This document shows, in pieces, positions 8,969 through 47,048 of a stretch of DNA of 64,000 bases. The stretch is from Propionigenium maris DSM 9537 (GTDB lineage: Bacteria > Fusobacteriota > Fusobacteriia > Fusobacteriales > Fusobacteriaceae). Position numbers and translations under genes: made by a program. Below the pieces are notes generated by a model, which saw nothing but the letters and a program-made list of their open reading frames with translations, made no database searches and had not been told where the DNA came from. Where the stretch lies: positions 62,001 to 126,000 of the forward strand of contig NZ_BSDY01000009.1 of the NCBI RefSeq assembly GCF_027925155.1, read 5' to 3'. Numbering within the stretch: the stretch's first letter is position 1; every line of letters begins with the position of its first letter.

Positions 8969-11900
8969 CTACTCCTCCTCCAAACTTTCGACCTCTTCAG
9001 TGAGTTTTTCAAGGTGATCAAGGGCTCCTTCAAAATCATAGTTGTTGATACACCCCTCAACCCTTCTGAGGAGCTCATCCACTCCCCTTCCAGCAAGATG
9101 AGATTTGATCTCCTCCAGCTTCTCCTCGGCCTCTGTATCGTACTCTTCCAGGAGCTCCTTGAGGCCCTTCAGTTCCCTTCCTACTGTCTCTGGATCAATC
9201 TCAACTTTAACGGTAGTTTTTTCCTCCTTAGAGGTATCTGAGGTAAGTACCTCTATCTCTTCACAGATCTTCACTATCTCCTCATCTACTATACCTAGAA
9301 GAGAATCCACCTCCCCATTTTCCTTCAGTCTTCCCTCTAACTCCTTGGCAAGCTCATATAATCTCTTAGCCCCTATATTACCTGCCACTCCCTTGAGAGT
9401 ATGGGCACCTCTTATATTTTCATCCCTCTTACCTTCAGCCACTGCCTTTTTCAGGTCCTCTGCAAAGTTCAGGTTATTTTCTCTGAACTTTTTCAATATC
9501 TCCATATAGAGCTTGGTGTTTTCACCTACCCTCTTAAGGCCCTCGGTGGCATCTATATCCTTCAGAGTTTCCTTTATCTTTTTACCTATATCTTCCTTCC
9601 TCTCTTCCTCACCATCTCCTACAAAGATCTCTCGCCTTCCAGGCTCTATAAATTTTACAAGAGATTCATAGAGAAGGGTTTTATCTATGGGCTTGGTTAC
9701 ATAACCGTTCATTCCAACCTCCTCTACCCTCTTTTTTGTTCCAGACATGGCATCTGCACTGAGTGCTATTATAGGAAGTTCCCTGTATCTCTCTATCTTT
9801 CTCAATTCTGTTGTGGTCTCATACCCGTCCATTACAGGCATCTGCAGATCCATAAGGACCACGTCAAACTCCTTTCCAGCCGCCAGGGCTTCAATTGCTT
9901 TTTGACCGTTCTCCTCCACCTCTACATGAAATCCCTCGCCCTCCAGAATAGCCCGGATAACATCCTGATTTATAAGGTTATCCTCTACAACAAGTATCTT
10001 AGCTCCCCTGATCTCCTCAAAGCCTTCTGGGTACTCTCCGCTGCTCCTTCTGTGGTTGTCTATCATCTCCTCTACTCCAAAGACCTCCATTATATTATCA
10101 AAGAGAACCGACTGACTTACAGGCTTCATGAGAATTGTTTCGATACCCTCCCTTCTGGCCCTGTCAACTATATCTTCCCGTCCAAAGGCTGTTACCATTA
10201 TTATCTTAGGCAGAGTCTTTTTTCCTCTCTCCTTGATGAGCTTCCAGGCTTCAATTCCATCTATTCCTCCAAGCTTGAGATCCATGAGGATGAGGTCTAT
10301 CCCTTTCTCTTCACCAAGAGATGCTTCAAACTGAGACACACTCTCCTCTCCAGAGGAAACCAGTATTGTTTCAAAGGAGAAATCTGTAAGGTAGCTGTCC
10401 ATAACCCTTCTTGCGCTTTCATTGTCATCTACTACCATGACCCTCAGACCTTTGAGCTCTTTGGCTACGGCCTTCCTCTTGACTCCCTCTCCCCTCTTCA
10501 GAGTAATTGTAAAGAAGAAGTTACTTCCCTCTCCATACACACTCTCTACATCTATCTCTCCTCCCATTAAGCCTACAAGGTGTTTGGAGATACTCAGTCC
10601 AAGTCCAGTTCCTCCGTATTTTCTTGTGGTTGAAGCATCAGCTTGGGTAAATGCTGTAAAGAGTTTCTTTCTCTGCTCCTCTGTTAGTCCTATCCCTGTA
10701 TCCTTAACCTCAAACTTCAGCTCCACCCTTTCACTGTCTACATCCCTTGAGGTCACCCTCAGGAGAACCTCTCCCTTGTCGGTAAACTTAATTGCATTGT
10801 TGGTAAGGTTGAGTAGGATCTGTCCTATCCTCAGAGGGTCACCTATGAGGTAATCTGGAATGTGACTGCCCCTTTCAATAACAAATTCTATCCCCTTCTC
10901 TGCCGATTTAAATCCGCTTATATTGGAGAGTCCCTCTAGAACGTTGTCCAGACTAAAGGTTGTGTACTCAATATCCATCTTCCCGCTCTCAATCTTTGAG
11001 AAGTCCAGTATATCATTTATTATTCCCAGAAGGTTTGTAGCTGATCTCCCAACCTTGTCCACATAATCCCTCTGCTTACCAGAAAGATCGGTTCTCTTAA
11101 GGAGATCATTTAATCCCAGGATGGCATTCATGGGAGTTCTTATCTCATGACTCATATTAGCCAGGAATTCACTCTTAGCCTTTGTGGCACTCTCAGCCTT
11201 CTCCTTGGCTTCCTCCAGCTCCATATGAATACGCTTTATATCCTCTATATCTATCATAGTGATGATGTGAGCCTGCTTCTCCATATACTTTAAAAGGTGG
11301 GAGGAAAACAGGGTCCACCTTTTTTCTCCGCTGCCTATACGCCTTAGCTGAACTTCGTAGTTTTCAACTCCTGTCTTTCTCCGGAGCTCCCTCACCCTCT
11401 CGTCCCCCTCTACATATAGATCTATCATTCGGTGGTTATAGAGCTCCTCCTGGGAGATAAGGTTAAACTCAACCATGGCTTCATTGGCCCTCACTATCCT
11501 TTCAGTTGATGTATCTATTACAGCCATGGGAACCGGTGAGTTGTCTATAATCTTATTTGTAGTTTCCATGGTCTCAATAATCTTTCTTTCAGCTTCCTTT
11601 CTCTTCTTGATCTCCGAGACCAGTCTTCTGTTCCAGACAATTATTGAGGTAAAGATAGATCCCAATATCACCACTGCCAGTGTCCCCACCTTCCAGATGA
11701 ATACCCAGTCTATCTCCTTCTCTATTGGCATCTCCGTCCACTTGGTTTCTATAAGATGCTTTTCATCCTCGGTAAATGAGTAGAGGATCTTATCCAGTAT
11801 TGGAACTAGCTCTGGATGCCTCTTATTTACTCCCATGGATAGTTCCACTGTATATGGTGTGGTCAGGATAACCTCGATATTATCCAGTCCCATCCTTTTA

Positions 11901-33361: not shown

Positions 33362-33383
33362 AAAAACCCGCCGCGGGTTTTTT
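33362..33383. terminator. Terminator of parAB
   Basis: AAAAACCCG-CCG-CGGGTTTTTT, overlapping the parB stop codon; functional in both directions. Confidence 0.88.
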
Positions 33384-34299
33384 AACCTTCCCTACTCATG
33401 AGTACCTTAATATACTCCTCCAGCTCCTTCATGCTCTCTTCAGAAAGGCTCCTTGCTATCTTAACTGTAGTGGTATTACGCCCAGCCTTAAACTCAACTT
33501 CCTTTCTTACTATGCCTTTTTTTATTCTTTTAATCTCTGCCCTAATTTCATCTCTGGTAAGGTCTCTATACTCCTCTATTATATCTACAACACTCTTCTC
33601 AGAATTCAGAAGCTTTATTAGTTTATTCATCTCCTCAGCCTTGCTGATACCTACCTCATCCAGTATCCCCTTGAGTTCCTTGGGATAACTCAGTGCTTTA
33701 GCCAGCCTCTGAGTCTGACTGGAACTGAGGTTATACCTCTCCGCTGCATCCTCTAAGGTCTTCCTCTCCTTACTGCAGTAGGTATGTATCCTGTAGGCAA
33801 GCTCCAGTATATTTAAATCCTTTCTGTGGGTATTCTCATTTACCTGAAGAACCTCAAGCTCCTCCCTGGTATAGTCTTCAGGAATAATAACTACCTTCCC
33901 CTCTACCTCAAATTCATCTCCATACTGGTCGTATCCATAGTGAATAGCACAGCTTCTTCTATACCCCGAGACTATCCTGTATCCTCCCTCTACTTCCTGA
34001 AGGTAGATGGGGTTTATAAGGCCCACCTCATGTATACTAATAGCAAGAGCCTGTACCGTCTCCTCCCCTACCATCTTTTCCAGGCCATCCTCCCTCAGGA
34101 TATATTTCCTGTCGCCAAAGTCCACCCTTTGAAAAAACTCTCTGTTAAACTCAGTGAGGAACGCTCCTGGAAGGTTCTGAAGTTCCGTCATCCCCCTATA
34201 GGCCATATTGGCCATTGCATTCTTCCTTACCTCATCTCCCGTTTTCTGGTATTGATCGTAGCTGTAGTTTGTCCCGTCTAATAGGTCCTTAACACTCAT
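33382..34299 (-). CDS. parB: ParB-like partition protein (plasmid/secondary-replicon type)
   Basis: A 305-residue ParB/Srx-fold protein. The N-terminal ParB core spans about 80-165, with EVGLINPIYLQEVEGGYRIVSGYRRSCAI in place of the chromosomal GERRxRA box, then VNENTHRKDLNILELAYRIHTY. An HTH segment follows (TLEDAAERYNLSSSQTQRLAKALS, about 180-205), and the C-terminal part would dimerise. The divergence of the arginine box is common in plasmid-type proteins. It overlaps parA by 11 bases, so translation is coupled. No parS sequence could be identified by eye. Confidence 0.85.
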   Translation of the reverse strand: MSVKDLLDGTNYSYDQYQKTGDEVRKNAMANMAYRGMTELQNLPGAFLTEFNREFFQRVDFGDRKYILREDGLEKMVGEETVQALAISIHEVGLINPIYLQEVEGGYRIVSGYRRSCAIHYGYDQYGDEFEVEGKVVIIPEDYTREELEVLQVNENTHRKDLNILELAYRIHTYCSKERKTLEDAAERYNLSSSQTQRLAKALSYPKELKGILDEVGISKAEEMNKLIKLLNSEKSVVDIIEEYRDLTRDEIRAEIKRIKKGIVRKEVEFKAGRNTTTVKIARSLSEESMKELEEYIKVLMSREG

Positions 34300-35233
34300 T
34301 GGACTCGGCTCCTTCCTCTCTCTCTAGAATCTCATCCACAAGATCCCTGTAGTCCCTTGCTCCGTTGGAGCTTGATGCATAATCAAATATATTTTGTCTC
34401 TTTATAGGTGCCTCAGCCACCTTTACATTGTCCCTGATCTTAGTTTTAAGAAGCTTCCCTTCAAAAACCTCCTCTATCTTTCCCAGAACAGATTTATCCA
34501 GGTTTCTTCTTGCATCATACATCGTTGCAAAGACCCCTTTGATCTCTAGCTCCTCATTTCCATACACCATCTTTCCAGTTTCCACAGTCTGAATAAGCTG
34601 AGCTATTCCCTCCATAGCATAGTACTCCGTCTGAATGGGAACATAGATAGACCTCGTCATAGACAGGGCATTTAAATTTAACTTTCCAAAAGATGGTGCA
34701 CAGTCAAATATCACATAGTCAAACTTACTGAAATCAAAGTCCTTTGTTCTTATCTTTAATAAGTTATCCTTTCCTGGTATATCTAGGAACTCAAATTGCG
34801 ACAGTCTCAGGTCAGCAGGTATTACATTTATCCCCTGTACCTCTACCATGGCATCTCTCGGATGCACCTCTCCCTTAAGTACCTCATATATAGATGGAGC
34901 CTCTGGATTATAAGCTCCCATACCCTTGGTAAAGTTTCCCTGGGGATCCAGGTCTATTACAAGGACCTTCCTTCCCTTTCTGGCCATTCCAGTGGCAACA
35001 TTCTGTACAGATGTTGTCTTCCCTACTCCACCCTTTTGGTTTAAAAACGAAAGAAATTTCGTACTGGCCTGCTTAGCCAGGTACTCTCCCAGCGCCTTAT
35101 TTATAAGTTCAGATTTACTGTTAGGACCATCTCCCTGTTCCTTCAGCACCCTCTGCATCGCTTCCTCTTTATCTTGGTCTAGCATTACATTTCTTCTTAT
35201 TTTTGTTTTCTTCTTTAGTTGTTTTACCGCCAT
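34289..35233 (-). CDS. parA: ParA-family partition ATPase with N-terminal RHH-like extension
   Basis: A 314-residue ParA/MinD-type ATPase. The deviant Walker A KGGVGKTTS (near residue 68) and the Walker B regions VIDLDPQGN and YVIFDCAPSFG are intact. An N-terminal basic segment (1-55, with SKSELINKALGEYLAKQ) resembles a ribbon-helix-helix DNA-binding domain, which plasmid ParA proteins use for autoregulation; chromosomal Soj proteins lack it. ATG 35233 is chosen, 8 bases after AGGAG; GTG 35242 overlaps that site. Together with parB it should segregate a large replicon. Confidence 0.88.
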   Translation of the reverse strand: MAVKQLKKKTKIRRNVMLDQDKEEAMQRVLKEQGDGPNSKSELINKALGEYLAKQASTKFLSFLNQKGGVGKTTSVQNVATGMARKGRKVLVIDLDPQGNFTKGMGAYNPEAPSIYEVLKGEVHPRDAMVEVQGINVIPADLRLSQFEFLDIPGKDNLLKIRTKDFDFSKFDYVIFDCAPSFGKLNLNALSMTRSIYVPIQTEYYAMEGIAQLIQTVETGKMVYGNEELEIKGVFATMYDARRNLDKSVLGKIEEVFEGKLLKTKIRDNVKVAEAPIKRQNIFDYASSSNGARDYRDLVDEILEREEGAESNEC

Positions 35234-35266
35234 GGGAATCACTCCTCTGTATTTTCTCTATATCTA

Positions 35267-38293: not shown

Positions 38294-39241
38294 TTAGACC
38301 ATCATCCCTCTCAGTCTCTCTCCTACCACCTCCATCTGATGCTTACTCTTCTCCTCCCTTGTACCCTTGAGGTTTTTCATTCCGTTCTTGTATTCGGTGC
38401 AGAACTTATCAGCAAAGGTACCGTCCTGGATCTCCTCTAAAACCTTTTTCATCTCCCTCTTGGTGTCCTCAGTTACAATCCTCTTTCCTACCTCATAGTC
38501 TCCATATTCAGCTGTATTGGAGATGGAACTTCTCATAGATGTAAATCCTCCCTCTACCACCATATCAACTATAAGCTTCATCTCGTGTACACACTCAAAG
38601 TAAGCGCTTTCTGGAGAGTAACCAGCCTCTACAAGAGTTTCATACCCTGCCCTCATTAGTTCACTTACTCCTCCACACAATACAGCCTGTTCTCCAAATA
38701 AATCCGTTTCCGTCTCTTCTTTAAAGGTTGTTTCAAGGATTCCTGCTCTTCTTCCGCCAATTCCAGCGGCCCATGCCATAGCTACATCCTTGGTATCTCC
38801 AGTTACATCTCTGTATACCGCCACAAGGCACGGAGTCCCCTTACCCTCTGTATAAGTCCTCCTAACCATATGTCCCGGTCCCTTGGGAGCTACCATGAAT
38901 ACATTAACCTCCTGGTGAGGCTCTACCTTATTGTAGTGGATATTAAATCCGTGACCAAACCCCAGATAAGCTCCCTTCCTTAGGTTAGGTGCTACGCTTT
39001 TCTCATATACTTCCGGCTGAACCTCATCTGGCACCAGCATCATCACTACATCCGATCCCTTTACTGCATCCTCCACAGAAGCAACCTTCAGCCCGGCCTC
39101 CTCTGCCCTGCTCCAGTTTGCCGATCCCTCTCTCAGCCCCACAGTTACATCTGCTCCAGAATCCATCAGATTCAGTGCATGGGCATGTCCCTGAGATCCA
39201 TATCCTACTACTGCTACTCTTTTATTTAATAACTTCTCCAT
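38294..39241 (-). CDS. ilvC: Ketol-acid reductoisomerase (class I)
   Basis: A 315-residue enzyme that isomerises and reduces acetolactate or acetohydroxybutyrate with NADPH and Mg2+. The Rossmann motif GYGSQGHA is at residues 13-20 and the C-terminal metal-binding knot starts at [14 protein letters not shown]. The N-terminus lacks the usual roughly 13 residues (KIYYDxDAD type) before the nucleotide-binding strand. GAGGAGGAG lies at correct spacing before ATG 39241 and no upstream start fits, so the short form appears genuine. It is the last gene of ilvE-D-B-H-C. Confidence 0.96.
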
Positions 39242-39256
39242 CTTAACTCCTCCTCT

Positions 39257-39739
39257 TTAGAGACCTAAGCCCCTATGCATACTCGTTACTCCTGTTCTCG
39301 CCACTTCAAGAACCCCAAACTCCTCAGCTACCTCAAGATATCCCTCTATCTTCTCTCGCCCACCAGTGAGCTCCACAATTACATTATTCTTAGATGTATC
39401 TATTATGCTCCCCCTGTATAGCCTTGTCAACTCCACCACCTGGGATCTGTTTTCATTATCAACTCCTATCTTTATAAGGGCCAGCTCCCTCTCTACACTG
39501 CTATCTGTAAACTCCTTTACCACAGTTACGTCGTAGAGCTTTCTGGCCTGGGATATTACCTGGTTAACTGTATATTCATTCCAGCTCCCAGATATGGTCA
39601 TTCTTACCCTGTTATCCTCACTGGTTCTCCCAGCTGTTATAGTATCTATATTTATCCCCCTCTTCTGAAAGAGGCCCGATACCTTACTCAGTACCCCAGA
39701 GTTATCCTTCATTATGATCAAAATATTACGCTTCTCCAT
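39257..39739 (-). CDS. ilvH: Acetolactate synthase small (regulatory) subunit
   Basis: A 160-residue protein with an N-terminal ACT domain (residues 3-75; IIMKDNSGVLSKVSGLFQKRGINIDTI) and the C-terminal ALS regulatory domain. It activates the catalytic subunit and mediates valine feedback inhibition. It overlaps ilvB by 14 bases, which implies coupled translation and fixed stoichiometry. ilvC follows 15 bases later. Confidence 0.95.
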   Translation of the reverse strand: MEKRNILIIMKDNSGVLSKVSGLFQKRGINIDTITAGRTSEDNRVRMTISGSWNEYTVNQVISQARKLYDVTVVKEFTDSSVERELALIKIGVDNENRSQVVELTRLYRGSIIDTSKNNVIVELTGGREKIEGYLEVAEEFGVLEVARTGVTSMHRGLGL

Positions 39740-41420
39740 CTCTCCTCCCCTCTATGGTTTCTCCTACAGACCTTCCAGCAGGAATAATCGGATATACATT
39801 ATCTCCCCTTGGAACCACCACCTCAACAATTAGTGGCTCATCATCTAGGAGCTCCCCCTGGATCTCTCTTAACTCCTCCATACTCTCCACTCTTCTTCCC
39901 CTCAGGCCATAGGCCCTTCCAAGGGTTAAGAAATCCGGGTTATATTCCAGTTCCACATGGGAAAATCTTTTGTCATTAAATAACTCCTGCCACTGCCTTA
40001 CCATCCCCAGGGAGCTGTTATTAAAGATAAAGACCTTTACCGGTAGCCTGTATTGTGCCAGGAGCATAAGCTCCTGCTGATTCATCTGAAAACCTCCATC
40101 TCCGGAAATAGCCACCACACGGCTATCAGGTTTGGCTACCTGAGCTCCGATTGCTGAGGGAAGTCCATATCCCATGGTTCCAGCTCCTCCAGATGTACAC
40201 AGGGTATACTCCCTCTTAAACCCATAGGTCTGGGCTGTAAACATCTGGTGCTGTCCCACATCCGTTGTCACGATGGTATCCTCTGGCATAATTTCACTGA
40301 GATACTTTAGCATCCTCTTTGAAAGGAGCTCCTCGGTCCCAACTCTTCCACAAGGTCCATCCTTCCACTTACTTCTCCAGCCACTGTGCTCCCCTAGGTC
40401 CCTGTGCTCCAATACCTTTTGCAGCACCTCCCTTGCATCTCCCACAACAGCCAGATCAGCTCTCACACTCTTATTGATCTCAGCTTCATCTATATCCACA
40501 TGGATCTTTTTGGCATTGGGTGCAAACCTTGTGGCATCTCCCACAATCCTGTCATCAAACCTCATTCCCAGGCTTATGAAGAGATCACATTCATCCACAC
40601 AGGTATTTGCCCTCTTAGATCCATGCATACCTATCATCCCCAGATATCCAGGTGTACCCTCTGCTATACTTCCGAGTCCCATAAGTGTTGAAACACTTGG
40701 CACTCCGCTTCTTTCCACTACCTCCTGCAGTTCTCTGGCAGCACCACTTCTCACCACGCCACCACCAGCTACTATAAGCGGCCTTTTAGCCTCCTTCAGC
40801 ATCTTCACAAACTCCTCTACACTTCCATCCTCTATGGAGATGCTGTACTTCTCCTCCAGGTATATATTTTCCTTCCCGTATATCTCTTCAAATCTTTCAT
40901 ATGAGATGGAATCCATCTGCACATCCTTAGGAATATCCACAAGTACGGGCCCATGCCTTCCAACTCTCGTTAACCTGTATGCTTCCTTCAGTATCCTCGG
41001 TAGCTCCTCTATGCTGTCCACCAGATAGTTATGCTTGGTTATAGGAGATGTTATCCCCAGTACATGAGATTCCTGAAAGGAGTCCTTTCCCAGGTAGCTG
41101 CTTCCTACCTGACCTGTAATGGCCAAAAGAGGGATGGAATCCATATAAGCTGTCATTATTCCTGTGACCAGGTTTGTTGCCCCGGGACCCGATGTAGCCA
41201 GACACACTCCCACACTTCCACTCTTCACTCTGGCATAACCGTCAGCCATATGGCTTGCTCCCTGTTCATGTCTCACAAGGTAATGATTTATCTCGTGGTC
41301 ATCGTAGAGAGCATCATAGATTGGTATCACTGCTCCCCCCGGATAACCAAATATATCCTTTACTCCCATCCTCTTTAGTACTTCCAGTACAATCTGGGCT
41401 CCCTTTATTCTTCTCTTCAT
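39726..41420 (-). CDS. ilvB: Acetolactate synthase large (catalytic) subunit
   Basis: A 564-residue ThDP/FAD enzyme that condenses pyruvate with pyruvate or 2-oxobutyrate. Motifs are GYPGGAVIPIYDAL with the catalytic Glu in RHEQGASHMADGYAR, the FAD-domain regions, and the ThDP-Mg motif GDGGFQMNQQELMLLAQY ... FNN near the C-terminus. The length is standard. AGAGG precedes the ATG and ilvD ends 13 bases upstream. Confidence 0.96.
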   Translation of the reverse strand: MKRRIKGAQIVLEVLKRMGVKDIFGYPGGAVIPIYDALYDDHEINHYLVRHEQGASHMADGYARVKSGSVGVCLATSGPGATNLVTGIMTAYMDSIPLLAITGQVGSSYLGKDSFQESHVLGITSPITKHNYLVDSIEELPRILKEAYRLTRVGRHGPVLVDIPKDVQMDSISYERFEEIYGKENIYLEEKYSISIEDGSVEEFVKMLKEAKRPLIVAGGGVVRSGAARELQEVVERSGVPSVSTLMGLGSIAEGTPGYLGMIGMHGSKRANTCVDECDLFISLGMRFDDRIVGDATRFAPNAKKIHVDIDEAEINKSVRADLAVVGDAREVLQKVLEHRDLGEHSGWRSKWKDGPCGRVGTEELLSKRMLKYLSEIMPEDTIVTTDVGQHQMFTAQTYGFKREYTLCTSGGAGTMGYGLPSAIGAQVAKPDSRVVAISGDGGFQMNQQELMLLAQYRLPVKVFIFNNSSLGMVRQWQELFNDKRFSHVELEYNPDFLTLGRAYGLRGRRVESMEELREIQGELLDDEPLIVEVVVPRGDNVYPIIPAGRSVGETIEGRRDGEA

Positions 41421-41433
41421 TCTACACCTCTTT

Positions 41434-43080
41434 CTAGTATGACATTACCGCACCCTCGCTGGCCGAAGATACCAGTTTCATATATTTTTTGAGGAATCTG
41501 CTCCTCACCTCCCTGTGGGGGTGTACCAGCTTTTCTCTTCTTCTCTCGAGCTCCTCCTCATCTACCTCCACATCTATCCTCCCTCCTGGGATATCTACGG
41601 ATATCATATCTCCATCCCTTACAAGGGCTATATTCCCTCCCTCTCTGGCCTCTGGAGATACATGTCCAATGGCTGCTCCCTTGGAACCTCCAGAAAACCT
41701 TCCGTCTGTAATAAGGGCACAACTGCTGTCTAAGCCCATTCCTACAAGTACCGATGTTGGGGAGAGCATCTCCCTCATTCCTGGACCTCCCTTGGGCCCC
41801 TCATATCTGATTACTATCACATCCCCCTTAACTATCTCCTTATTTAAAAGGGCTTCCACAGCGTCCTCCTCACAGTCGTATACCTTTGCAGGACCTCTGT
41901 GTATCAGCATCCTCTCATCTACAGCCCCTGATTTAACAATTGACCCCTTAGGTGCCAGGTTCCCCTTGAGCACTGCCAGCCCCCCGTTGTTATAGTGGGG
42001 GTTATCAAATCCTCTTATTACCTCTCTGTCCCTTACAGAAACCTCCTCCACCTCTAATTTAATGTCCTCTCCATAGATGGTCGGTGTCCCCTTTATAAGA
42101 TTATTTCTATGTAACTCACTCATCACTCCGTAGATCCCACCGGCTCTGTCCAGATCCTCTATATATGATCTTCCAGCAGGAGAGAGCTTCACTATCTGCT
42201 TCACCCTTTGGGAAAGATCATGGAAATCATCCAGCCTGAGGTCAACTCCCGCCTCATAGGCTATGGCAGGAAGGTGAAGAGCTGTATTGGTAGATCCCCC
42301 CAGGGCCATATCCACAGCCACAGCATTTTCAAAAGCTTCCCTTGTAAGGATCTCACCTATGTTTTTCTTCTCCTCCAGAAGCTCCATCACTCTAATTCCA
42401 GATTCCTTTCCAAGTCTCAGCCTCTTACTGTATACCGCCGGTACTGTCCCATTCCCCTTGAGAGCAACTCCCAGAGCCTCCGTCATACAGTTCATGGTAT
42501 TTGCAGTATACATCCCTGCACAGGAACCACAGGTAGGACATGCTTCGTTTTCTAGCTCTGCTAGCTCCTCCTCACTACCATCTCTCCCAGCTGCTTCAAA
42601 TACATCTGTAAGAGCCACTCTTCTGTCCCCCACTCTTCCAGCCAGCATGGGACCCCCGCTCACAAAGACACTTGGAAGGTTCAGCCTTGCTGCTGCCATA
42701 AGCATCCCCGGTACTACCTTGTCGCAACTGGGAATAAAGACCAGTGCATCAAAGGGCATAGCTGTAGCTGAAGCCTCTATGGAGTCTGCTATTATCTCTC
42801 TTGTAGGCAAAGAGGACCTCATCCCCTCATGGTTCATTGCTATCCCGTCGCATACAGCAATGGTATTTACCTCCATGGGGACTCCTCCCCCAAGCCTTAT
42901 TCCGCTCTTTACACTTTCTGCCACCATCTTCAGGTGCATATGTCCCGGAACCACCTCATTGAAGGAGTTTACCACTCCCACCTTGGGAAGCTCCATCTCC
43001 CTGTCTGTAAGCCCCAGAGCTTTAAAAAGAGATCTGTGTGGTGCTCTTAACTTTCCTTCTGTAACTTGTCTGCTTCTCAA
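41434..43080 (-). CDS. ilvD: Dihydroxy-acid dehydratase
   Basis: A 548-residue Fe-S dehydratase that converts dihydroxyvalerates to 2-keto acids. The cluster cysteines lie in PSCDKVVPG and CPTCGSCAGMYTANTMN; CDGIAMNHEGMRSSLPTREIIADS and PGGPGMREMLSPTS-like segments (here EGPKGGPGMREML) are characteristic. It starts with TTG 43080: AGAGGAGG lies 7-8 bases upstream and the reading begins MRSRQVTEG, as in homologues. It follows ilvE by 62 bases. Confidence 0.95.
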   Translation of the reverse strand: MRSRQVTEGKLRAPHRSLFKALGLTDREMELPKVGVVNSFNEVVPGHMHLKMVAESVKSGIRLGGGVPMEVNTIAVCDGIAMNHEGMRSSLPTREIIADSIEASATAMPFDALVFIPSCDKVVPGMLMAAARLNLPSVFVSGGPMLAGRVGDRRVALTDVFEAAGRDGSEEELAELENEACPTCGSCAGMYTANTMNCMTEALGVALKGNGTVPAVYSKRLRLGKESGIRVMELLEEKKNIGEILTREAFENAVAVDMALGGSTNTALHLPAIAYEAGVDLRLDDFHDLSQRVKQIVKLSPAGRSYIEDLDRAGGIYGVMSELHRNNLIKGTPTIYGEDIKLEVEEVSVRDREVIRGFDNPHYNNGGLAVLKGNLAPKGSIVKSGAVDERMLIHRGPAKVYDCEEDAVEALLNKEIVKGDVIVIRYEGPKGGPGMREMLSPTSVLVGMGLDSSCALITDGRFSGGSKGAAIGHVSPEAREGGNIALVRDGDMISVDIPGGRIDVEVDEEELERRREKLVHPHREVRSRFLKKYMKLVSSASEGAVMSY

Positions 43081-43142: not shown

Positions 43143-44102
43143 CTACCCTACATCAGAGATCCTCTCTTCAGAGCATACCTCCTCCTCATCCTCTACAAAG
43201 GTAAGCCAGGACTCATCATATGTTACCCTTCCATTTACTATATCAAAGTACTCCTGCTGGATTCTCTTTGTCACCTCTCCTACATATCCATCTCCTATTA
43301 CCTGGTGATCCACCTGAGTCACCCCTGTAAGCTCAGCTGCTGTTCCAGTAAAGAATACCTCATCCGCCATATACAGGAACTCCCTAGGCAGAGTCTGCTC
43401 CACAACTCTATATCCAAACTTTTCACAGATCTTCATAACAGTGTCCCTTGTAATACCACATAGGATACTTGAGCTTATTGGTGTGGTGTAGATCACTCCG
43501 TCCTTTACTATGAATAGATTTTCTCCGCTTCCCTCAGCCAGATTACCATTTACATCCAGTGCTATCCCCTCATCAAACCCAAGCTCTAATGCCTCCATCT
43601 TGATAAGCTGTCCCGAAAGATAGTTACCACAAGCCTTTACCATGGTTGGGAAGGTATTAGGTGCCGATCTTGTCCAGGAAGAGATCTTAGCCTTAATTCC
43701 CTTTTCAATTGCTTCATCCCCAAGGTATGCTCCCCACTCCCAGGCAGCTATCAGAGCATCTACCGGGCACGGCTTGGGATTTACCCCAAGGGAGTTCATC
43801 CCTCTGTAGTATAGAGGTCTGATATAGGCACTCTTTAGTTTATTTGCCCTTAGAGTATCCAGCACAGCCTTCTTGTACTCCTCCTGTGTATAGGGAGCTT
43901 CCATCCTGTATACCTTGATTCCCTCATATAATCTCTTAATGTGGTCATCCAGTCTGAATATAGCTGCTTTGCCATTTACTGTATAGGCTCTCATCCCCTC
44001 AAATACACCGCTTCCGTAGTGAACTACATGGGATAGTACATGGATCTTCGCCTCATCAAATGCCACCATCTCACCATTCATCCAAATATAATCTGCTTTC
44101 AT
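43143..44102 (-). CDS. ilvE: Branched-chain amino acid aminotransferase
   Basis: A 319-residue fold-type IV PLP enzyme that transfers the amino group to 2-oxo acids of Val, Ile and Leu. The catalytic Lys is Lys156 in TMVKACGNY. SHVVHYGSGVFEGMRAY, the cofactor-phosphate region SSSILCGITRDTV and FFTGTAAELTGV fit the family. GGGAGGAGACGG precedes ATG 44102. As the first structural gene it lies about 60 bases behind the attenuator that controls the operon. A short acidic tail (after 295) is slightly longer than usual. Confidence 0.95.
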   Translation of the reverse strand: MKADYIWMNGEMVAFDEAKIHVLSHVVHYGSGVFEGMRAYTVNGKAAIFRLDDHIKRLYEGIKVYRMEAPYTQEEYKKAVLDTLRANKLKSAYIRPLYYRGMNSLGVNPKPCPVDALIAAWEWGAYLGDEAIEKGIKAKISSWTRSAPNTFPTMVKACGNYLSGQLIKMEALELGFDEGIALDVNGNLAEGSGENLFIVKDGVIYTTPISSSILCGITRDTVMKICEKFGYRVVEQTLPREFLYMADEVFFTGTAAELTGVTQVDHQVIGDGYVGEVTKRIQQEYFDIVNGRVTYDESWLTFVEDEEEVCSEERISDVG

Positions 44103-44163
44103 AACCGTCTCCTCCCTTAATCTATCTGTATTTTAATAAATTGCTTGCAACTAATATCTGTAA

Positions 44164-44197
44164 TAAAAAAAGCTCAAACCGTAAATGGTCTGAGCTT
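44164..44197 (-). terminator. Attenuator (intrinsic terminator) of the ilv leader
   Basis: On the minus strand AGCTCAGACC-ATTTAC-GGTTTGAGCT followed by TTTTTTTATT, between the leader peptide and ilvE. Its left arm can instead pair with an identical GGTTTGAGC copy at 44219-44227, forming an antiterminator. Confidence 0.88.
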
Positions 44198-44218
44198 CCA
44201 TCAATCTATACTTCCTCT

Positions 44219-44227
44219 GCTCAAACC
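44219..44227 (-). promoter_or_regulatory. Antiterminator strand of the ilv leader
   Basis: GGTTTGAGC (minus strand), an exact duplicate of the terminator's right arm; it can pair over nine bases (one G-U) with the attenuator's left arm GCTCAGACC. A competing CCTTAT/ATAAGG hairpin just upstream could free or trap it. Confidence 0.7.
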
Positions 44228-44289
44228 TTATCAACTGTATCAAAATAAGGCGTGAACACTAGGAAAGTTTTTAATAAACTTATAATTTC

Positions 44290-44355
44290 CTATTCTTCAA
44301 GCCTGCCGCTAATAATTATTGAAATGAGGACGTATCTATTTACTACATTTATCAT
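44290..44355 (-). CDS. ilvL: ilv operon leader peptide (21 aa, Ile/Val/Leu-rich)
   Basis: A 21-codon frame starting MINVVNRYVLISIII: 10 of its 21 residues are Ile (5), Val (3) or Leu (2), with three consecutive Ile codons at positions 13-15. GGAGG lies 8 bases before ATG 44353-44355. It sits between a consensus promoter and an intrinsic attenuator ahead of ilvE. This is the classic arrangement for ribosome-mediated attenuation: stalling at Ile/Val/Leu codons when charged tRNA is scarce should favour the antiterminator. The symbol ilvL is used by analogy with enterobacteria; homology is not implied. Confidence 0.85.
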   Translation of the reverse strand: MINVVNRYVLISIIISGRLEE

Positions 44356-44395
44356 TATTCCTACCTCCGAAAACCGTACATTTTTATTGCTAAGG

Positions 44396-44424
44396 ATTAT
44401 ATGACAATTCTGTACGCATGTCAA
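44396..44424 (-). promoter_or_regulatory. Consensus promoter of the ilv operon
   Basis: On the minus strand TTGACA (44419-44424), exactly 17 bases, TATAAT (44396-44401). This perfect sigma70 consensus gives a start near 44390 and a leader of about 290 nt before ilvE. Confidence 0.93.
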
Positions 44425-44797
44425 CAACAATAATGCTATTTTTTCATTAAAAAATCTTCATCTTTTATTTAGACCTTGAATCTACTGGTCTAAATAAAGG
44501 TTTATTTTTATTTCTTTTTAACCACATTCCTCTTAAAATTGACTCCTCTCTGCCATTTAAACTTTCTGAACTCCCGTTTAAAACATTCCCCTAGGATACT
44601 TCCCCTTCAAAAAGAAAATTCTCCCCTCCTCCTTCTTTTTTATGCAAGATTTTAATATAACATTATTTAAGAACACAAGAGACAACTTACTATCAGACCG
44701 GTTTTAAATTCTTGCTATTTTATTAGCCATCTATTTAAATAAAAAATTCCCCCTAAAGGTTTTTAACTGCTATAAAGCTAGATCAAAGGAATATCTC
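44425..44797. other. Gene-free AT-rich stretch between ilv promoter and decayed signalling gene
   Basis: No ORF, terminator or repeat that I can support. It lies upstream of both the ilv promoter (minus) and the pseudogene (plus). Confidence 0.5.
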
Positions 44798-47048
44798 ATG
44801 TCCAACAGGAAAATATAAGATCTTATTTTTAACTAAGAACATCCCCTCTTCTATAAAACAAATAGAAGATTTAAGAAAAATAAACTATCAGGTAATACAC
44901 TCTCTCACTCCTAGAAAGGCTAAAAGCCTTTGTGGAAGTGAGAGAGGAATAAAATTAATTGTAGTGGATATCGATTCTGTTCCAGATTTCCTCCCATTTA
45001 TTAATGAGATATCCCACTATATAGATCTTCCTATTCTATATACAACACTCCAGGAGGAGGAAGTGATAAATATGAAAAATCTTTCTCAGTACTTCCATGG
45101 ATACCTCTCCAAGGGTGCAGAGATCTTTGACCTTAAGCACACTATCTCAACTACCATGACCCTCTTTTATTCAAATAGAAAGATGAAAAATGAACTCAGT
45201 TGCCTCCAATTGGCTGAAAGAATCTCAAACTTTGGGTACTGGACATTGAACCTTCCAGAGGGCACCGTCTACCTCTCAGAGGGAACCAGGAAGATCTGTG
45301 GCTTCTCAGAGGATAGATATCCCCTTAAGTATCTCCATAGCTTTCCACTGCCTAAATACAGAGATATGCTGGATACATCTCTCAAAGATCTCATCCAGGG
45401 GAAGCTTCCCTATGATGTTGAATTTAAAATTAAAAACAAGATCACAGGAAGGATTATTCCAATCCACTCTGTGGCCCTCTACGATCCCATAGGCAACACC
45501 ATAACAGGGACCCTCTACGATATATCCAAACAAAAAAATCCGAGGAGAGAGCTCTGAGAAGGGAGGAGGTCAGGGAAAGGATGAAGTCTGCAAGAAGCCA
45601 GAAAAATAATGTCTTTTCCTTTAAACACCGGCTGGCAGATGGAGAGATTAAAGATGTCCAGGTGTTTTCAGGTCCTATCACCTATGAGGATAAGGGCTGT
45701 CTCTTCTCTGTAATCCACGATGTTACCGACCGTGAGAAAGCCTATAAACAGATCGAACATCAGGCTTACTATGATTCCCTTACCGCTCTTCCAAACAGGG
45801 AGAGATTCTCTAAAACCCTAAAAAATCTAACTACCTCCCCTGGAAGGGTTTCTTCTGGCTTTGCCCTCCTTCATATAGACCTGGATCACTTTAAGGATAT
45901 AAATGATAACTTTGGCCACGATATAGGCGACCTCCTCTTAATAAAGGCAGCAGAGCGTCTTCAGAGGATAGCAGACCTAAACAGCACCATCTACCGACTG
46001 GAAGGAGATGAGTTTGCAGTTATTTTAAAAATAGGATGGAGATATCCTCCCTCTGTAATAAAATTTTAAGGACCCTGAAAAGTTCCTTTAAAATCAATGG
46101 TAATGAACTCTTTATCTCTGCAAGTATTAGAGTAGCAACCTATCCCAAGGATGGAAGTAGTTCCAGAGAACTTTTTAAAAACTCAGATCTGGCAATGTAT
46201 AGAGCCAAAACCGAGGGGAAAACAGGTATTCCTTCTTCGACACAGACCTCAGAAGTGTCTTTAAAAGAAAGGTCTGGATAGAGAGAGAACTTCGTAGGGC
46301 ACTGAAGAACGATAATCTTTCCCTGCACTATCAGCCTAGAGTTGCTGTAGATCAAAACAAAATTATTAGTTCAGAGACATTTATCCACTGGAAAACTAGC
46401 GAAGAGGAACCTATCGCTCCCGCTGAATTCCTTCCCATAGCTGAATCCTCAGGGCTTATCCTGGAAGTTGACAGGTGACTTCTCCTTACAGCTTTCAAGC
46501 AGGCCAAGGAGTGGGAGGTCAAGGGAATCGGAGAACACATTATTTCAGTTAGAATCTCTAATCTCCACTTCAGGTACAACCGGATACTGAAGACCCTCTT
46601 AGACCTGGCCCTTGTCACACCTATCCTTCCGGGAAGGGTAGAGATTGAAATCACCGAGGAACTATTTGCAAATAGTCTAAAGGAACTCCTACCCTTTCTC
46701 ATGGAATTAAGAGCAATGGGAGTAGGCATCTCTATCGATGGTTTCGGAACAGGGTTTCACTCCCTGAGCTTTATAAAAAACCTTTCCATCGACAGGATAA
46801 AGATAGACAAGAGGTTTATATTGAATCTCTCAGTGGATCCATGTGATGCCACTATCATTAAAACTATTATAACCATGGGAGAACTTTTAAATCTAAAGGT
46901 TACAGCAGAGGGGATTGAGACAAATGAGCAGTTAGAGGCATTAAGAAAATTGGACTGTGATGAAATCCAGGGAAGCTACTTCACCCCTCCCATATGTTCA
47001 GCGGAATATGAGAATTTCTACTTTTCATGGTCCCACTCTCTAGAGTAA
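44798..47048 (+). pseudogene. Decayed REC-PAS-GGDEF-EAL signalling protein
   Basis: The conceptual product is a receiver-like domain (KILFLTKN ... IKLIVVDIDSVPDF), a PAS/PAC segment, a degenerate GGDEF (EGDEF, with the following GKTG context) and an EAL domain. The ATG at 44798, with AAAGGA upstream, runs out of frame within six codons at an AAAA run. Further shifts occur at an A7 tract near 45537 and near 46030 and 46210. An in-frame TGA at 46476-46478 replaces a Trp expected in the EAL domain. Catalytic residues are also lost: EAL reads ETF, the metal Asn of SVNLS is Arg (SVRIS), and DDFG is DGFG. The locus is therefore dead for both synthesis and hydrolysis, although shorter open pieces remain. 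Confidence 0.88.

Follow-up and report, generated by a model that had tools for sequence, protein, structure and literature searches.

Transcription attenuators of the enterobacterial his type, including the leader of the Escherichia coli ilvGMEDA operon, combine control codons for the products of the operon with a chain of alternative hairpins and a terminator, whereas branched-chain amino acid genes are under T-box control in many Firmicutes. This contrast, which framed an earlier annotation of the present locus made without database searches (the sequence-only reading), is softened both by the occurrence of T-box matches in the order studied here and by the ilv-leu attenuator of Staphylococcus aureus, which uses a Leu-rich leader peptide with additional control by CodY (available text of PMC5794164). 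An upstream ORF rich in Ile, Leu and Val, with a terminator and an antiterminator, also precedes ilvB in the Corynebacterium ilvB-II system (PMC10272879, as described in the available text of PMC11109978). The same text presents the trpB motif of Firmicutes and Fusobacteria as a riboswitch candidate, its authors leaving a classic attenuator possible. No report of leader-peptide attenuation in Fusobacteriota was found among the top-ranked papers in searches of the open-licence literature. The term Fusobacter(i) is absent from the available main text of two surveys (PMC2965389, PMC3766115), a third refers to Fusobacteria as a group represented by few genomes (PMC4833913, available portion), and a fourth mentions them in connection with its choice of genomes (PMC8632094, available portion).

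The locus described here lies in a 64 kb stretch of DNA (the window), where the minus-strand region 44424-44165 is very probably a ribosome-mediated transcription attenuator, one that would raise ilv transcription when the supply of tRNA charged with Ile, Val or Leu runs low. Like the his-type and ilvGMEDA attenuators, it has a leader ORF, control codons matching the operon's products, a predicted hairpin chain and an intrinsic terminator. Unlike them, it belongs to another phylum, precedes an operon with another gene order, has no Rfam match at gathering score, and contains a control-codon region that is itself predicted to pair with the antiterminator strand. With the S. aureus system it shares a leader rich in branched-chain amino acids and a terminator outside the Proteobacteria, the S. 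aureus attenuator standing before ilvD, although the likeness is one of description and the peptide there is Leu-rich and accompanied by CodY (PMC5794164, in the text available). Corynebacterium ilvB-II, likened to the window by description, differs in belonging to the Actinobacteria and in its two-stem model, while the trpB motif, likened in the same manner, is also a 5'-UTR element that includes Fusobacteria, at other genes (both from the available text of PMC11109978).

Table 1. Features of the ilv leader and operon in the window, and of the tyrS leader in the same genome
Feature	Coordinates	Strand	Basis or detail
Sigma-70-type promoter TTGACA-N17-TATAAT	44396..44424	-	12/12 consensus; TTGACA 44424-44419, TATAAT 44401-44396
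Shine-Dalgarno GGAGG of leader ORF	44364..44368	-	sequence
Leader ORF MINVVNRYVLISIIISGRLEE*, 21 codons	44290..44355	-	translation; detector match
Strand W, control-codon region	44308..44340	-	predicted pairing with B when ribosome absent
Strand X, leader ORF end and stop codon	44287..44304	-	predicted pairing with A
Strand A, GCCTTATTTT just 3'	44244..44265	-	predicted pairing with X or B
Strand B, core GGTTTGAGC at 44227-44219	44203..44235	-	predicted pairing with A, W or C
Strand C, GCTCAGACC, part of terminator left arm and antiterminator 3' side	44187..44195	-	B:C 9 bp
Strand D, GGTTTGAGC, terminator right arm	44172..44180	-	sequence
Intrinsic terminator	44165..44199	-	stem 44199-44168, T7 44171-44165; about -18 kcal/mol
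ilvE, branched-chain aminotransferase	43143..44102	-	TIGR01122 416.5 bits, cut-off 245.55
ilvD, dihydroxy-acid dehydratase	41434..43080	-	TIGR00110 744.1 bits, cut-off 618.15
ilvB, acetolactate synthase large subunit	39726..41420	-	TIGR00118 675.3 bits, cut-off 538.35
ilvH (ilvN), acetolactate synthase small subunit	39257..39739	-	TIGR00119 146.3 bits, cut-off 56.9
ilvC, ketol-acid reductoisomerase	38294..39241	-	TIGR00465 442.2 bits, cut-off 226.15
Own-genome Tyr-run leader MKKNFTLGNRYYYYYL, strong terminator, before tyrS	L311 (G000 contig C8) 244-294	+	

The sequence-only reading had named the downstream genes as ilvE-D-B-H-C, and all five exceed the curated NCBIfam cut-offs; they are separated by gaps of 62, 13, -14 and 15 nt, in that order, and a hairpin resembling a terminator (38280-38261) lies 3' of ilvC. 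The promoter it had called perfect indeed matches the consensus at every position, and no second 12/12 promoter with 16-18 nt spacing occurs anywhere else in the 64 kb. Within 110 nt upstream of each of 17 leaders, the best promoter-like match agreed at 9-12 of 12 positions, with a spacing of 17 in 13 cases and 18 in four, in a scan made without a shuffle control. Between the window's promoter and ilvE sits the short ORF with its ribosome-binding site, and translation confirmed the 21-codon leader with GGAGG that had been reported: ten of its 21 residues are Ile, Val or Leu, including three consecutive Ile at positions 13, 14 and 15, such that the control codons agree with the products of the ilvEDBHC operon. 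The intrinsic terminator precedes the first structural gene, and the described repetition of its right arm, next to a run of seven T, is present in the sequence, with GGTTTGAGC found both at 44227-44219 and at 44180-44172. A perfect 12-bp inverted repeat, TTTATTTAGACC/GGTCTAAATAAA, lies some 40 nt before the -35 box (44498-44464, minus strand) and may represent an operator or, alternatively, mark where another transcript ends.

The assembly to which the window belongs has 60 contigs and totals 4.1 Mb (completeness 100, contamination 7.64). A relative listed in the same family, G025, matches plasmid pILYOP01 of Ilyobacter polytropus DSM 2926 at 100% over 3125 bases, and the window is therefore assigned to the Fusobacteriaceae, in keeping with the Fusobacteriota placement first suggested. 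A ParA gene and a gene that by eye is ParB-like lie at 33382-35242 (minus strand). Among plasmid records, the window's ParA lists pILYOP01 first (46.9% identity, 204 bits; a Geobacter record is slightly higher, at 214), hence the contig may be part of a secondary replicon. At 44964-47048 (plus strand), several short ORFs appear by eye to be fragments of one sensor/GGDEF/EAL-type gene, seemingly split by frame changes.

In the mechanism proposed for this leader, transcription would start at the consensus promoter, the leader ORF would be translated, and strands X, A, B, C and D would form a chain in which adjacent strands are able to pair. If a ribosome stalls on the Val, Leu or Ile codons, it would cover W and leave X free, such that X would pair with A, B with C, and C:D would form too late, allowing RNA polymerase to continue. 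A ribosome reaching the stop codon would instead cover X, whereupon A:B and C:D would form and transcription would end. Were there no translation, W:B and X:A would be expected to form together with C:D, again resulting in termination.

Folding of the RNA is consistent with this scheme. The leader transcript (44390-44103) has a z score of -5.0, and none of 200 shuffles folded equally well. When computed on transcripts ending before the terminator right arm, the lowest-energy folds in the three ribosome states agree with the chain model. Firstly, with no ribosome, W (44340-44308) is predicted to pair with B, through 44340-44319 with 44224-44203 and 44315-44308 with 44235-44228, while X pairs with A. 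Secondly, with a ribosome at Ile13, the same 15-bp X:A helix (44304-44287 with 44265-44248) is predicted alongside a 9-bp B:C antiterminator (44227-44219 with 44195-44187) that excludes the terminator. Thirdly, with a ribosome at the stop codon, a 14-bp A:B helix is predicted. Folding thereby yields the mutually exclusive structures anticipated for the minus strand, and the duplicated strand is predicted to pair with the terminator left arm, as originally suggested; what had been presented as a switch made by that strand is, however, better described as a chain of five strands plus the codon region.

The fold adopted in silico by the window's leader is set by the position of the ribosome. With a footprint of +12, upstream RNA is predicted to sequester the terminator left arm with a probability of 0.73-0.75 when the A site is at any of codons 6-14; the value is 0.47 at codon 5, 0.09-0.22 at codons 2-4 and 15-22, and 0.13 without a ribosome. 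Footprints of +9, +12, +15 and +18 place the upper edge at codons 15, 14, 13 and 12 respectively, and Ile15 would therefore be effective only with the shortest. The difference between stall and end states, 0.57, compares with 0.003 +/- 0.128 in spacer shuffles, none of 400 reaching 0.57, for codon sets that were picked after the first sequestration profile was seen. On the full-length RNA, each of the four computed states, including the stall, has the terminator as its lowest-energy fold, hence the switch must be kinetic; known attenuators are likewise modelled as kinetic. Applied to 17 ilv attenuators, the ribosome-position calculation predicts that sequestration falls by at least 0.19 once the ILV run is passed in 11 but not in the remaining six, two of which (L006 and L151) change in the wrong direction by more than 0.1. 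In most of the 16 other than the window's, the left arm is predicted to be largely sequestered without a ribosome (0.27-0.92, against 0.13 in the window), and in some, such as L157 and L158 (about 0.8), this is so with the ribosome at the stop codon as well. Hence the clean three-state logic is predicted for the window only.

The elements of the leader are conserved in relatives. A pattern derived from the window and its relatives, GCCTTATTTT-N-AAGGYTTGAGC, occurs at 15 places in nine of the 96 genomes of the order, with none for the reversed control: once in the window's own genome (G000), and 14 times in eight genomes of g4, another genus of the family. Together with L138, these places form a 16-copy alignment (A2), in which every copy has an Ile-rich leader with a Shine-Dalgarno sequence upstream, and the downstream gene, judged by printed N-termini, is ilvE in nine and ilvD in seven. 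Pairing is retained in 130/144 cells for X:A, 157/160 for A:B, 144/144 for B:C and 151/160 for C:D. In this register the window pairs at four of the nine X:A positions and fails at five, and its own X:A helix therefore rests on folding. Five of the nine B:C pairs vary, with one double change, located in the window; this covariation is modest, as shuffles of A2 reach the observed values in 30 of 500 cases. Hence, of the features put forward as shared with relatives, the leader ORF and the B:C pairing are kept, whereas the exact nine-base duplication of GGTTTGAGC is lost. Both the exclusive folds and this conservation support the interpretation as leader-peptide attenuation.

A covariance model built from these copies (R1) extended the family: of 98 genomes of the phylum, 16 gave matches at E <= 0.1. 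There were 33 such matches, comprising the window, 15 g4 copies before ilvE or ilvD, and 14 further copies that were inspected. The remaining three, which had no loci, were dropped, two being antisense to known copies and one unexplained; later matches were likewise discarded in L165 (antisense) and L255 (unexplained). In g4, four genomes have a further copy ahead of a BASS-family transporter gene (with leaders such as MNTNKKTLATLILIIIICSVV); in g14, copies stand ahead of ilvA and of ilvB, with three genomes for each. A single g12 genome has a copy before tyrS (leader MKFDNNQTYYYYY), and three g13 genomes have one before the gene of a family-5 solute-binding protein. One downstream protein per group was checked by HMM. 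On pILYOP01, the ilvB copy of G025 falls within the 406 nt that separate pyrE from ilvB, a gap without annotation. The BASS-family transporter passes the Pfam SBF model and is below the NCBIfam cut-off; the homologous Ile-run attenuator before its gene (L272, L268, L273, L274) hints at a branched-chain-related substrate. Before the family-5 solute-binding protein gene (L258, L259, L260), the attenuator-like match has the leader MVSNTLKTVIYIHILLIS or similar.

Across 25 of the matches (alignment A5, with L163, L172, L175, L176 and L255 left out), double changes occur in 13 of the 21 model pairs (four in A:B, six in C:D and three in a small upstream helix), a result reached by 0 of 500 shuffles in an alignment that is fitted to the very helices whose double changes are counted. 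B:C, which is absent from R1, nevertheless pairs in 95.7% of cells on the alignment made by R1, against 4-63% for slid versions. Its covariation does not surpass that of shuffles of A5, of which 40, 168 and 188 in 500 reach the values observed for B:C in cells paired, score and double changes respectively, and double changes are more numerous when the helix is slid by -1 (three versus one). The helix is complete in the window, in the g4 copies before ilvE, ilvD and the transporter gene, and in the g14 ilvB copies; it is partial in the g14 ilvA copies (8/9), the g13 copies (6-8/9) and the tyrS copy (3/9). The homology of the tyrS copy is therefore tentative, its support consisting of the leader and the model score (E 4.8e-4 for one genome, with 98 searched).

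Ile-rich frames arise easily in A+T-rich DNA, and the binomial p for the window's single ORF is only 0.024, against an assumed background. Such a frame could thus result from base composition, with the hairpin being a constitutive weak terminator or a stability element of an ordinary 5' UTR. Leaders of other sequence bear on this explanation, and were sought with a detector combining a Shine-Dalgarno sequence, a short ORF rich in chosen residues, a terminator and a following gene, with backgrounds and cut-offs assumed and chosen by the analyst; 80 loci titled as other groups (L052-L131) were excluded from every count. At p < 0.001 the detector found five leaders and missed the window's own, and it was loosened to p < 0.06. 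At this threshold, 80 loci from the order gave 22 matches, which correspond to 18 distinct places. All of them lie before ilvE or ilvD, and they span eight of the family's 14 genera, including g1 and g4; outside the family, there were six matches among 20 ilvD loci (from 28 of 35 genomes). The same threshold missed nine of 16 ilvE loci (L002-L017, a set in which L005 and L013 belong to other families), every one of the 14 ilvE-like loci in family f4 (L018-L031), 15 of 30 ilvD loci (L132-L161) and all 20 T-box loci. Five of the ilvD misses, all in g4, do have a leader on inspection, and at several other missed loci ilvE or ilvD is positioned behind another gene.

The residues enriched in these leaders also correspond to the genes that follow them. 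Under fixed, stricter cut-offs, at which the window's own leader falls out, the ILV detector fires in 10 of 46 ilvE/ilvD loci (44 from the family and two others) and five of 20 further ilvD loci. In leuA loci, Leu leaders are found in 11 of 17 and ILV leaders in nine of 17; His leaders are found in 12 of 16 hisG loci, Tyr leaders in 14 of 42 tyrS loci, and neither in any other set. The strays were one Leu match in the ilv set and one ILV match in the tyrS set, and none of the four residue detectors fires in the 20 T-box loci. The leuA, hisG and tyrS loci were sought in the family's 61 genomes, and the gene after the leader was checked by HMM for His at L227 (hisZ), Tyr at L257 and L311, and Leu at L197. 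At hisG loci, His-run leaders such as MLNKMIITFHHHHHS are accompanied by terminators (L227, L229-L239).

In the window's own genome, the predicted sequestration of the tyrS leader drops only after the first Tyr codon, and ten other tyrS leaders, of 13 found, yielded a clear predicted switch in two (L312, L314). Ahead of leuA, the same genome has a leader that contains Leu and is followed by a terminator, but it escapes the detector cut-offs; this leader (MKILTTMLLILLTRLF...) has the opposite predicted profile, at 0.07-0.15 for Leu8-Leu12 and high later. Within the window, the ILV detector produced two matches, the ilv leader and an ILV-rich ORF at 11147-11293 (plus strand), which has a weak hairpin and a 102-aa ORF next to it and was judged spurious. 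This one spurious match in 64 kb accords with an origin in base composition. Yet such an origin is very improbable, given the confinement of the 22 detector matches to ilvE and ilvD, the runs of Leu, His and Tyr that match the leuA, his and tyrS genes behind them, and the failure of 400 shuffles to reproduce the switch.

A T-box, or another riboswitch sensing a tRNA or metabolite, might alternatively govern the terminator and leave the short ORF incidental. T-boxes (RF00230) share with the ilv leader a termination switch for amino-acid genes, and have matches in the order at 20 places in 13 of 61 genomes, all under the Rfam gathering score and including one in the genome to which the window belongs; they differ in sensing tRNA without translation. 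However, that match precedes asnS, and the gene was asnS, asnB or aspartate--tRNA(Asn) ligase in every one of the seven T-box loci, of 20, at which it was tested. No Rfam family, amino-acid operon leaders included, reached gathering score in the 64 kb window, and a search of 44050-44500 with E up to 5 returned no T-box, only four unrelated matches (E 0.19-3.4) far below their gathering scores. A T-box reading of the ilv leader was rejected on these covariance searches of the window and of 44050-44500, and as the leader residues fit the operon, here and in other operons, control by any riboswitch is extremely improbable. Just as improbable is action through translational coupling or as a trans peptide rather than transcription termination, for which there is precedent in a Sinorhizobium meliloti leader peptide acting in trans (available text of PMC7298713), as 187 nt and a strong terminator separate the leader stop from the ilvE start, and leader sequences vary between genera except in the control run.

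Ribosome-mediated attenuation in response to the supply of branched-chain amino acids is therefore the preferred reading of the ilv leader. The mechanism itself is textbook leader-peptide attenuation; the novelty appears to lie in its breadth within Fusobacteriota, and in the reuse of one scaffold at several genes. It is a tentative proposal, which we give somewhat less than an even chance as a whole, that leader-peptide attenuation is the chief means of amino-acid sensing in Fusobacteriota, and that an ancestral X-A-B-C-D scaffold with GCCTTATTTT was copied between genes and recoded from Ile to Tyr. The copying of the scaffold, in this joint proposal, would involve at least ilvE, ilvD, ilvB, ilvA, the BASS-family transporter gene and tyrS. 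These leaders would extend a classic bacterial control logic to Fusobacteriota, provide candidate switches that can be tested at the genes for isoleucine/valine, leucine, histidine and tyrosine, and suggest how genomes with few T-boxes may sense amino acids, while the homologous series of attenuators would make the scaffold and the sensor codons separable by experiment. If the joint proposal is true, the phylum has, in place of the T-boxes of Firmicutes, an attenuator module that can be transferred and recoded.
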